Below are positions 6,994 to 20,708 of a DNA stretch of 64,000 nucleotides, one piece after another; the first letter of the stretch is position 1; each line of letters begins with the position of its first letter. This DNA comes from Marinospirillum alkaliphilum DSM 21637. Its GTDB lineage: Bacteria > Pseudomonadota > Gammaproteobacteria > Pseudomonadales > Halomonadaceae. The DNA lies in the NCBI RefSeq assembly GCF_900119735.1, contig NZ_FPJW01000004.1, positions 62,001-126,000 of the forward strand, in the 5' to 3' direction. Both the position numbers and the translations under genes were made by a program. The notes beneath the pieces are model-generated. The model saw only the letters and a list, made by a program, of their open reading frames with translations. It did not search any database and had not been told where the DNA came from.

Positions 6994-8190
6994 ATGAAGA
7001 TTCCCGCCACCTCGTTTCAAAGCCTGACCTGGATGCTGGCCGGTCTGATTTCCATCGGACCGCTGGCGATTGATGCCTACCTGCCGGCCATGCCGCAAAT
7101 TGCCACCAGCCTGGACACCTCCATTCATCATGTGGAGCTGACCCTGAGTGTCTTTCTGATCGGTTTTGCGCTGGGGCAGTTGTTCGGCGGGCCTTTTTCC
7201 GACCAGTACGGTCGCCGCCTGACCATCCTTTCCGGGCTGGGTATTTTTGCACTGGGTAGCCTGCTGGCAGCACTGACACCTTCGATTGAAATCCTGTGGC
7301 TGGCTCGTGTGCTGCAAGCCTTTGGTGGCGGCATCGGGGTGGTCAACACCATGGCAGTGGTGCGGGATCTTTACAGTGGCCGTGACAGTGCCCGTGCCTT
7401 GTCGCGCATCGTGTCGATCATGCTGGCGGCACCCCTGCTGGCTCCTTTTATCGGCAGTGGTATTCTGCTGTTCAGCAACTGGCGCGGCATTTTTGCGCTA
7501 CTGATGCTTTATGCCCTCGCTTTATTACTGGTGCTGCTGCGCACCCTGCCGGAAACCCGTCAGGCCAGTGTTCAGGTATCCATGCATCCGCTGCGGCGTT
7601 ACTGGTCGGTGATCCGCCATCGCCCAACACTGGGTTTTCTGAGCGCCACTGCATTCAGTCACGCCGGGATGTTTGCTTTCATCACCGGCTCGGCGCTGGT
7701 GTACATGGAATATTACGGTGCCAGCCCGCAACTGTTTCCGGTGCTGTTTGGCATGAACATCCTCACCCTGGTGGCCTGCAATCGGCTGAATGTGCTGTTC
7801 CTCAATCACACCTCGCCGCTGCGATTGTTAAAAATCGGGCAGGCTGTACAACTGCTGTTTGGCCTGGTCCTGCTGCTGAGTTACCTGTTGTTTGAACTGC
7901 CCCTCTGGGGACTGGTGCTGATGATCATGCTGTTCATGGGGCAGCACGGTTTCATCATGGCCAATGGCATTTCCAGTGCAGTGGATTATTTCCCGCAGAG
8001 TGCTGCCACTGCCAGTGCCGTGATCACCGCCACCGGTTTTATGGTCGGGGCCGCCAGCGGCACTCTGGTTGGCTTGTTAGGTGATGGTTCACCCATCCCG
8101 ATGCTGGCAGTGATGGCCGCCTGCCCCATGCTCGGCATCCTGCTGCGCACCCTGCTGCACCGAGATTTACAAATCCCGCCCGAGCAGTGA
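6994..8190 (+). CDS. MFS drug-resistance transporter, Bcr/CflA family
   Basis: 398 residues with about 12 hydrophobic segments. The first helix runs into the Bcr/CflA signature around residues 20-35 (PLAIDAYLPAMPQIA), and the loop between helices 2 and 3 has the MFS motif GPFSDQYGRR. Members export drugs such as bicyclomycin, or small metabolites such as cysteine, by proton antiport across the inner membrane; the substrate here cannot be told. It is separated from ahpF by a terminator, so it has its own promoter. Its position after the peroxide genes gives no firm functional link. Confidence 0.9.
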   Translation: MKIPATSFQSLTWMLAGLISIGPLAIDAYLPAMPQIATSLDTSIHHVELTLSVFLIGFALGQLFGGPFSDQYGRRLTILSGLGIFALGSLLAALTPSIEILWLARVLQAFGGGIGVVNTMAVVRDLYSGRDSARALSRIVSIMLAAPLLAPFIGSGILLFSNWRGIFALLMLYALALLLVLLRTLPETRQASVQVSMHPLRRYWSVIRHRPTLGFLSATAFSHAGMFAFITGSALVYMEYYGASPQLFPVLFGMNILTLVACNRLNVLFLNHTSPLRLLKIGQAVQLLFGLVLLLSYLLFELPLWGLVLMIMLFMGQHGFIMANGISSAVDYFPQSAATASAVITATGFMVGAASGTLVGLLGDGSPIPMLAVMAACPMLGILLRTLLHRDLQIPPEQ

Positions 8191-8211
8191 ACTTCCAAAA
8201 CGGGAGCGCAG

Positions 8212-8266
8212 CACTTTTACGCGCTTAAAAGTGTGCATACTTGCATTTTTATGCGCCATAAAGTGT
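8212..8266 (+). promoter_or_regulatory. Two tandem palindromes upstream of the AAA/DUF4143 gene
   Basis: Copy 1 (8212-8234) is a perfect palindrome with arms CACTTTTA (8212-8219) and TAAAAGTG (8226-8233) around CGCGCT. Copy 2 (8244-8266) matches copy 1 at 18 of 23 positions and is an imperfect palindrome. The start-to-start distance is 32 bp, about three helical turns. The pair ends 38 bp before the ATG of the ATPase, so it overlaps the likely promoter. This is the layout of a double operator bound by a dimeric regulator; no regulator gene is adjacent. Confidence 0.6.
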
Positions 8267-8303
8267 AATGATCGGTGACTTGCCTGCTCACCGAGGATCA
8301 AGC

Positions 8304-9644
8304 ATGCAGCGGCTACTTCTTGAACAACTACTGGCATGGAAAAACAAACCAACACGAAAGCCGCTGTTGATCGATGGTGCTCGCCAGACTGGAAAAACCT
8401 ACCTGCTGCAGACCCTGCTCGGCCAGCAATTCCAACAGGTATTACGCATTGATTTCCTGGAATCACCAGACATGGCTGCTGCCTTTGAAGGCTCGCTGAC
8501 TCCAGAAGATGTGATCAAAAACCTTGAGCTACTGACCGGCCAACCATTCAACCCAGACAAAGACCTGCTGATTCTGGATGAAATTGGTGAGTCACCGCGA
8601 GCTGTCACTGGCTTGAAGTATTTCGCTGAAAAAGCTCCCCAGATGTATGTTGCAGCCAGTGGCTCCAATATTGGCCTGTTGAACACCTTTCCTGTTGGCA
8701 AGGTTGAACAGCACAATCTGCGCCCACTTACTTTTCGCGAGTTTCTTATTGCATCAGGCGACAAACCACTGTTTCAGGCTTTTGACTCCCAGATGAATTC
8801 AGCTGCGGCCCACAACAAGCTCTTCGACAAGCTCACAGATTATTATTTCACCGGCGGTATGCCTGAAGCTGTTCACACCTGGTTTGAACTGGAAAAAAGC
8901 AGCATCCTTGAGCGCATACAAGCTGTCTCGGATATCCATACCAACCTGGTTTCAGGTTATATGCGGGATTTTGGAAAATATGCCGGCAAGGTGGATGCAA
9001 CTCTGATTGAGGCCGTGTTTCGTAACATACCATCACAGCTGTCCAGTGTTATGGATGAGTCCGTGAAACGCTTCAAGTTCAAAGAGGTGCATGAGCGCAA
9101 ATCACGTTATGGTGAGTTTGAAAGTGCCATCAGCTGGCTGGAAAAATGCCGCTTGATTCTGAAAAACCACCCCCTTTCAGGCACACCCCGCAGCCCACTG
9201 GCAGCCTACCGCAAAGACAACCTGGTCAAGCTCTTCCTGTTTGATGTTGGACTGCTCAACCACATGCTTGGCGTCAGTTATCGGGAAATCAAACAGCAGG
9301 GTTACGAATACAAGGGTTATGTTGCTGAAAACTTTGTCCAGCAGGAGTTTGCCGCCCAGGGTATGGATACGACTTACTCATGGAATGATGCCAGAGCAGA
9401 AATTGAATTCATTGCCGCAGACGATCAGGGCCGGGTTGTTCCAATCGAAGTGAAAAGCGGCAAACGTACCCGCGCTAAGTCACTTCTGTCTTACATCAGC
9501 AAGTGTACGCCCCACAAAAGCATCAAGCTCACTGGCACACAAGGCTCTTCCTTGCTTGAACAGCAACCCCATGTGATGCCGCTGTATTACAGTGAATACG
9601 TCATCAGCAAACATCTGAAAACTGCACCGGACGCTGGCGACTGA
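8304..9644 (+). CDS. AAA ATPase with DUF4143 nuclease-like domain
   Basis: 446 residues from the ATG at 8304, supported by GAGGA at 8293-8297. The N-terminal AAA domain has Walker A GARQTGKT near residue 25 and Walker B LLILDEIGE near residue 90. The C-terminal DUF4143 region carries a PD-(D/E)xK-like pattern, AEIEFIAADD followed by PIEVKSGK (about residues 372-395). Such proteins are common, patchily distributed and of unsettled function; links to toxin-antitoxin or defence islands have been suggested. It stands alone between an MFS pump and the guanidine operon. Codon use is more relaxed (more AAA and TTG) than its neighbours, which fits horizontal gain. Confidence 0.85.
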   Translation: MQRLLLEQLLAWKNKPTRKPLLIDGARQTGKTYLLQTLLGQQFQQVLRIDFLESPDMAAAFEGSLTPEDVIKNLELLTGQPFNPDKDLLILDEIGESPRAVTGLKYFAEKAPQMYVAASGSNIGLLNTFPVGKVEQHNLRPLTFREFLIASGDKPLFQAFDSQMNSAAAHNKLFDKLTDYYFTGGMPEAVHTWFELEKSSILERIQAVSDIHTNLVSGYMRDFGKYAGKVDATLIEAVFRNIPSQLSSVMDESVKRFKFKEVHERKSRYGEFESAISWLEKCRLILKNHPLSGTPRSPLAAYRKDNLVKLFLFDVGLLNHMLGVSYREIKQQGYEYKGYVAENFVQQEFAAQGMDTTYSWNDARAEIEFIAADDQGRVVPIEVKSGKRTRAKSLLSYISKCTPHKSIKLTGTQGSSLLEQQPHVMPLYYSEYVISKHLKTAPDAGD

Positions 9645-19396: not shown

Positions 19397-20554
19397 CTAT
19401 TCCTGATTCAGGATGTCAATGTAAGCACTGTAGGCAAAGACGCGATTACGTTTTTGCCCGGTGAGCTCACGCACCAGTGCAAACTCTGGTTGTGCCAGCT
19501 TATCCATCACCTTGCCTGCTGTGGCAGGTGTGATGCCACTGTGTTTTACAAGGGTATTGATATTCACGACGGGGAATTCAAACAACACATCCAACACCTG
19601 CTGAGCAGAAGCAGCCATACGTCCGAGGCTGACTAATTGACTGCGATGCATCTGGCGCAGCTGGTTCAGTTGTTGCGCAGTATTCACGGCCTGATTGGCC
19701 GTTTCAGCAACGGCATCAACAAAAAACAGCAACCAGCTTTCCCAGTCTCCGCTTAAACGAACCTGCTGCAACTTGTCGTAGTAGATCTGGCGATGTTTTT
19801 TGAAGAATACGGATAAATATAACAAGGGTTCACTGAGTATTCTGGCCTCGACCAGAATGAGCGGAATGAGTAAACGCCCCAGCCGGCCATTACCTTCCAT
19901 AAAAGGATGAATGGTTTCAAACTGGACATGAACCAAAGCGGCTTTAATCAGTGGGTCAGTGGCTTCTGGCACATCATTGATGAAGCGCTCCAATTCAGAC
20001 CAACACTGGGCGAGCTCATTGGCAGGTGTTGGCACAAAGATGGCCTCATCTGCTCGATGGCCGCCAAGCCATACCTGATTTTTACGGAACGCTCCCGGAC
20101 CTTTACTGATGCCCCTGCCCGACGTCATCAGGGCTTTATGCAGCTCTGTCAGTAGTCGAAAGGTGATGGGCTCACCTTCCCGGATACGCTGCACCCCAAG
20201 CTCCAATGCATTGACGTAACAAGATACCTCCTGCACGTCATCCATTGGCACACCAGGTACACCCTCCATTTCGTAGAGCATTAAGTCACTTAAAGAAGAT
20301 TGTGTGCCTTCAATTTGTGAGGACATCACCGCTTCTTTACGCACGTAGCTGTATAAAAAGAGTCGGGCATCAGGCAAAAGGGTGCTGATCGCATCCAGTC
20401 GCCCAAGAGCCAGCATGGCTTGATTAATGCGACTCTGTAATTTGTTGTCTAGCTGCAAGGCAGGGTTGGGCGGTAAAGGAGCAGGGATAAACGCCTGACA
20501 GTTCACCCCTCCAGCAATGCTGGGGACATAATATCCGGTAGCTCGTCGCTCCAT
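19397..20554 (-). CDS. Fic-domain protein with inhibitory motif and C-terminal winged helix
   Basis: 385 residues from the ATG at 20554 (AAAGAGGTG upstream). The catalytic loop is HPFMEGNGRLGR with His at 216, so AMP transfer should be intact. Near residues 78-83, SSQIEG fits the inhibitory helix motif (S/T)xxxE(G/N) of self-restrained (class II) Fic enzymes. The last ~70 residues look like a winged-helix DNA-binding domain (NTLVKHSGITPATAGKVMDKL), as in Fic proteins of the SoFic type. It should AMPylate an unknown protein target and may also regulate its own gene. No separate antitoxin gene is adjacent, as expected when the inhibitor is built in. The upstream region is markedly AT-rich. Confidence 0.92.
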   Translation of the reverse strand: MERRATGYYVPSIAGGVNCQAFIPAPLPPNPALQLDNKLQSRINQAMLALGRLDAISTLLPDARLFLYSYVRKEAVMSSQIEGTQSSLSDLMLYEMEGVPGVPMDDVQEVSCYVNALELGVQRIREGEPITFRLLTELHKALMTSGRGISKGPGAFRKNQVWLGGHRADEAIFVPTPANELAQCWSELERFINDVPEATDPLIKAALVHVQFETIHPFMEGNGRLGRLLIPLILVEARILSEPLLYLSVFFKKHRQIYYDKLQQVRLSGDWESWLLFFVDAVAETANQAVNTAQQLNQLRQMHRSQLVSLGRMAASAQQVLDVLFEFPVVNINTLVKHSGITPATAGKVMDKLAQPEFALVRELTGQKRNRVFAYSAYIDILNQE

Positions 20555-20596
20555 AGACACCTCTTTGCTGACTCATCATTAAAATAAATCCTCACG

Positions 20597-20627
20597 TTAT
20601 TTTAACTTAATCGCAAAGATAAAATAA
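20597..20627. promoter_or_regulatory. Inverted repeat in the fic promoter region
   Basis: TTATTTTA (20597-20604) and TAAAATAA (20620-20627) form a perfect 8-bp inverted repeat in the AT-rich leader, about 45 bp before the fic ATG on the minus strand. It could be an operator for the Fic protein's own winged-helix domain, or part of an AT-rich promoter. Confidence 0.4.
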
Positions 20628-20708
20628 CAGGCCGCATTAATTTAAGTTAAGAGCGTTTTTAAGAAGCCACCGATAAGCGTCATGATGCAGGTCAGGCCTC
20701 GACAGGCT

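Follow-up and report, generated by a model that had tools for sequence, protein, structure and literature searches.

The window, the whole 64-kb stretch of DNA analysed here, contains a gene for a 446-amino-acid ATPase, preceded by two palindromic repeats, the proximal of which overlaps its predicted promoter. The gene is flanked by an MFS transporter gene and a large biotin-dependent carboxylase-like gene, in line with the original prediction that no repressor gene is adjacent. The features of the locus are:

8211–8234, no strand: distal copy of the putative operator, GCACTTTTACGCGCTTAAAAGTGT, matching the family consensus ACACTTTTATGCGCATAAAAGTGT at 21 of 24 positions
8241–8246, plus strand: putative −35 box TTGCAT, which runs into the start of the proximal copy
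8243–8266, no strand: proximal copy of the putative operator, GCATTTTTATGCGCCATAAAGTGT, matching ACACTTTTATGCGCATAAAAGTGT at 19 of 24 positions
8264–8269, plus strand: putative −10 box TGTAAT, sharing its first bases with the end of the proximal copy
8304–9644, plus strand: PDC-S01 ATPase gene, 446 amino acids (AAA_14, winged helix and DUF4143/PD-(D/E)XK)
8376–8399, plus strand: Walker A motif GARQTGKT, residues 25–32, conserved in both alignments (A1 and A5)
8568–8582, plus strand: Walker B motif LILDE, residues 89–93
8997–9239, plus strand: predicted winged-helix domain, residues 232–312, from the AlphaFold2 model; candidate DNA-binding part
9315–9533, plus strand: PD-(D/E)XK-like nuclease region, with E342, E366, E382 and K384 unchanged throughout 34 diverse members

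The protein combines the Pfam domains AAA_14 and DUF4143 and matches the PADLOC profile PDLC04786 (PDC-S01) over residues 1–432 of 446 (E value 2.9e-117); by sequence, it is PDC-S01, a single-gene anti-phage defence candidate. A published account ranks PDC-S01 as the fourth commonest defence (candidate) of prokaryotes and gives it as an ATPase fused to PD-(D/E)XK for which validation is pending (PMC12988326). The double-palindrome layout had originally been likened to that of toxin–antitoxin or defence genes, of which the second description suits PDC-S01 and the first fails for want of a small adjacent partner. A toxin–antitoxin module was rejected on that ground, the neighbours also varying between loci. 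An AlphaFold2 model based on the alignment of 34 diverse members (pLDDT 90.2, pTM 0.90; residues 250–253 below 50) replaced a poor one obtained with 24 close homologues (pLDDT 57.6), and its secondary structure is consistent with AAA, helical, winged-helix and PD-(D/E)XK parts. The winged helix present in this model comprises helices 232–247 and 269–281 and strands 285–288 and 309–312, and is a candidate for the DNA-binding part. Like the four residues of the nuclease region, G30 and K31 as well as D92 and E93 are invariant in the 34 members. Three gammaproteobacterial genomes of 1.5–1.7 Mb (G016, G037 and G073) each contain four to seven PDC-S01-type ATPase matches.

The distal copy is a perfect 8+8 palindrome, CACTTTTA-CGCGCT-TAAAAGTG, at 8212–8233. 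A single palindrome of this kind is not unusual, with 20 observed in the 64-kb window against 8–21 in Markov shuffles. A palindrome with a second copy at most 60 bp away is found once in the window and in 0 of 10 shuffles, and a pattern scan of the window returned 4 matches where 0.58 were expected. The second copy, CATTTTTATGCGCCATAAAGTG at 8244–8265, agrees with the first at 17 of 22 positions, and the distal and proximal copies are separated by 32 bp from start to start. The pair had been predicted at this distance, with 18 of 23 matching positions; the arrangement is borne out and unique in the window, and the count was about right. The two window palindromes are members of a repeat array spaced 32–33 bp.

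The original placement of the palindromes in the promoter also agrees with the sequence, the proximal copy lying within an inferred TTGCAT-17-TGTAAT promoter, so that the proximal operator would fill the 17-bp spacer between the two boxes. These putative boxes set the proximal copy apart: TTG occupies the −35 place in 21 of 41 proximal and 0 of 73 distal copies, and TGTAAT the −10 place in 24 of 41 and 3 of 73, respectively. A consensus promoter scanner made no call at the window promoter because it demands A at position 2 of the −10 box, which is G here. The start codon given in the list of open reading frames (ATG at 8268) was rejected, as it overlaps the −10 box and homologues put the start at 8304, in agreement with their MQRLLLxxLL beginning. 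With the start at 8304, the predicted transcription start falls after both palindromes. Elsewhere in the window, a Fic-domain gene (19397–20560, minus strand) is preceded, within 20560–20660, by TAAAATAAATCCTCACGTTATTTTA and an inverted TTTTAACTTAAT/ATTTAAGTTAAG pair, which may be an operator of its own.

A homologue search yielded 44 loci, and the motif set comprised 41 loci, the window among them, that bore the motif or could be tested for it, with ATPases 66–79% identical, plus L074 at 35% identity. At least two copies of ACACTTTTATGCGCATAAAAGTGT precede the gene in 40 of the 41 loci (L069 has one scored copy), as expected of a palindrome conserved ahead of homologues; the motif is absent upstream of the more distant L074. 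Within 300 bp upstream of the gene we counted 101 motif copies, two to four per locus, whose GCGC core hardly varies and whose neighbouring copies are 32 bp apart in nearly every pair, against 10 motif matches in 406,339 background positions of those loci. Neighbouring genes are seldom shared between loci, and no PDC-S01 gene turned up in seven congeners. The gene was found on Vibrio and Acinetobacter plasmids, the latter with the same array, and in an Escherichia coli defence island, where it carries the same two operators beside type I restriction, MADS and HipA genes. This island is present in four near-identical strains only. Retention of the array amid unrelated neighbours, hosts and plasmids indicates that the putative operator travels with the gene. 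The mobility of the gene, the PD-(D/E)XK domain of its product and a fold similar to origin-binding AAA proteins would also suit an array that, instead of being an operator, serves a mobile unit as a target for recombination, replication or a nuclease. We regard this as very improbable, given that the copies are one-sided and at promoter distance, that the proximal copy is matched to −35 and −10 boxes, and that a background scan found no second array beyond the other end of the gene.

In the host genomes scanned, the tandem arrangement appears restricted to the gene. Against the possibility that the palindrome is scattered at random, the core pattern with up to two mismatches gave 33 matches in the window's own genome, compared with 27 for the reversed pattern, and a true pair occurs only at this locus. 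Among 369 gammaproteobacterial genomes, five were positive for the motif with up to two mismatches: that of the window, two others with the motif beside a homologue and two with single sites. Across 29 homologue genomes the tandem matches, among the matches listed, lie at the gene; the one additional tandem, in Shewanella colwelliana (G371), stands before another PDC-S01 copy. A genome-wide host regulon was rejected, with only one pair above background and a motif that is rare in the 369 genomes. The second S. colwelliana copy (L111, 911–2227), which has its own tandem operator, sits beside a large integrase-like gene.

Distant members of the family (26–49% identity), which span several phyla and come from Fusobacterium, Collinsella, Parabacteroides, Glaesserella, phage contigs and other gammaproteobacteria, mostly lack the window motif but have repeats of their own at the same place. 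We computed upstream autocorrelation for 53 non-redundant members with less than 60% identity to each other. The strongest lag was 32 or 33 in 36 of the 53, versus 10 of 353 control windows taken elsewhere in these loci and 9 of 530 shuffles, with a mean Z of 2.8 at lag 33 and 1.7 at lag 32; nine members showed no clear array. In remoter DUF4143 ATPases, mostly 375–450 amino acids long with poor profile scores, the 32/33-bp period was found in 6 of 37. The array is typical of branches of about 430–460 amino acids and rare in those of 375–420. Shorter DUF4143 genes (380–410 amino acids; L260, L261, L264, L271, L274 and others) seem to have upstream palindromes with a 19–23-bp period, seen in 11 of 37 members of shorter branches versus 8% in 80-bp windows, over a lag range picked after seeing the data.

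AAAArTGT recurs as a half-site among the repeat units of the family. The start of the second winged-helix helix varies with array class: the TGCGCA type goes with RKSRY, several A/T-rich types with GARAKEY or similar and the TTGCAA...CG type with GIDRY, a correspondence that we treat as a lead and not a test. The subfamily of the window and a few others have plainly palindromic units, and many distant arrays are direct repeats. This bears on whether the repeats act in RNA, as leader hairpins, instead of as DNA sites. The self-complementarity of the 24-mer would allow for hairpins, yet we find the idea barely credible, as transcription is predicted to start downstream of both window copies, the closed GCGC palindrome of the core leaves no loop, and direct repeats have no such symmetry.

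The window-type array also occurs in phage DNA. An exact search of IMG/VR with CAYTTTTATGCGCATAAAARTG retrieved three contigs, with arrays at positions 869 (L281), 2904 (L283) and 2448 (L282) and a second copy or half-site 33 bp further on. Each of the three arrays precedes a gene for a T4-like DNA polymerase, which is annotated in L282 and L283. L281 and L283 represent one region read in opposite directions, leaving two different phages. In L282, TATAAT directly follows the second copy. A looser pattern matched 15 contigs, compared with 0 for a scrambled-core control, and a second copy (at least 13 of 24 positions) was present at 32–33 bp in 12 of the 15, versus 2% at other lags, corresponding to six of nine lineages in our own grouping. 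Genes close to the phage sites encode DNA polymerase, DnaB-like helicase, MazG and exonuclease, and one single site precedes thymidylate synthase. Contigs L284, L287–L292, L294 and L295 have an array, or one copy and a degenerate second, near helicase, MazG, exonuclease or small unknown genes; Vibrio phage VnaP (ON212104.1, position 70974) likewise has an array or a single copy with a degenerate second. No PDC-S01 gene was found beside the arrays in the phage stretches or records searched. The Bacteroidota-type motif CACTTTTTCGATGGAAAA had 0 matches in IMG/VR, so that phage carriage is documented for the window-type motif alone.

About six phage lineages in which no PDC-S01 gene was detected have tandems at 32–33 bp near replication genes, which raises the question of whether the motif is of phage origin, the defence gene having copied a phage promoter so that a phage factor turns it on during infection. 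We think this distinctly unlikely. VnaP and contig G648, the two phage genomes scanned, each have one strong site, which argues against a phage regulon, and a regulon of this kind was rejected. The phages, moreover, look unrelated and would nonetheless need the same factor, and other PDC-S01 branches have other motifs at the same spacing. The sites are best read as a binding site of the ATPase that phage DNA carries as a decoy, a borrowed promoter or a target, which suggests that phage DNA may compete for the protein.

In the manner of an autoregulated operator, the array overlaps the core promoter of its own gene, as judged from the sequence, is conserved with that gene and is private to it in host genomes. 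We consider it probable that the palindromes form a self-operator array of the PDC-S01 ATPase. Counting against this reading are the many distant arrays built of direct repeats, the nine of 53 members in which no array stands out and the lack of the motif at L074. The original prediction had left a choice between binding by the ATPase itself and control by a regulator coded elsewhere. We favour the former because gene and operator appear to move together between host genera and among unrelated neighbours, because the host tandem copies listed elsewhere lie at a second copy of the gene, because the protein model includes a winged helix, and because distant members have putative operators of their own at the same spacing. 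The latter alternative, a separate host transcription factor controlling the ATPase gene from the palindromes, would account for a layout like that of ordinary dimeric repressor sites, and a widespread host factor would also yield conserved linkage between site and gene; defence regulators such as RptR are indeed separate proteins (PMC12255303). Such a factor is nevertheless unlikely, being difficult to reconcile with the restriction of host tandem sites to copies of the gene and with the recurrence of the same array among unrelated neighbours in many genera and on plasmids. Moreover, PDC-S01 branches differ in their repeats and keep the 32/33-bp period, which would call for a different factor per class, and the RptR site (TAGCTA in 9-bp repeats) is unlike the window motif.

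For the favoured self-operator, we propose that a dimer or larger oligomer of the ATPase would bind the repeats through its winged helix, with adjacent units aligned along a single face of the DNA, 32 bp amounting to three helical turns. Bound ATPase would block RNA polymerase and keep its own level low, and infection, competing phage sites or a changed nucleotide state could release the promoter. Repression is the sign of regulation that we infer, and activation could apply instead. More tentatively, the ATPase might use the operator as an infection sensor, with the arrays at phage replication genes either drawing the protein off, which would induce the gene or make them decoys, or being silenced or cut, and with each branch having its own array ‘address’; this extension is possible and, in our judgement, rather doubtful.

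PDC-S01 is among the most abundant reported defence candidates of bacteria and archaea, and the array offers a first handle on its mechanism, in the form of a candidate DNA ligand per branch, a predicted mode of control and a shortlist of phages that carry the site. We found no report of upstream operator arrays of PDC-S01 in the literature searched, and such reports may exist elsewhere. Among known folds, the closest in the PDB to our model is 2QEN, the archaeal Walker-type ATPase PAB2304, at a TM-score of only 0.44, followed by ORC/Cdc6 subunits, many of them DNA-bound, at about 0.3 or less. ORC/Cdc6 proteins bind DNA repeats through their AAA and winged-helix domains. PDC-S01 differs from 2QEN and ORC/Cdc6 in having an additional PD-(D/E)XK domain and repeats at its own promoter.

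Among known operators, NrdR boxes are palindrome pairs about three helical turns apart, with ACAC...GTGT ends, at replication-related promoters, and consist of 16-bp units with an A/T core. The window array shares the paired palindromes, their approximate spacing and the ACAC...GTGT ends, and differs in its 24-bp unit, its almost invariant GCGC core and its confinement to the ATPase gene in hosts. A parallel may also be drawn with defence islands controlled by RptR, which represses its own promoter and whose tandem palindromic repeats overlap the −10 box of a defence promoter (PMC12255303). The likeness lies in such repeats overlapping the −10 box. Membership of the RptR regulon was rejected, with no TAGCTA found in 8190–8304 and no adjacent rptR. 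RptR is a separate regulator that recognizes the 6-bp TAGCTA in 9-bp repeats, whereas the PDC-S01 array has 24-bp units at 32–33 bp and no adjacent regulator gene, its presumed binder being the effector. Unlike the separate repressors of defence islands, PDC-S01 would thus be an effector that acts as its own repressor.
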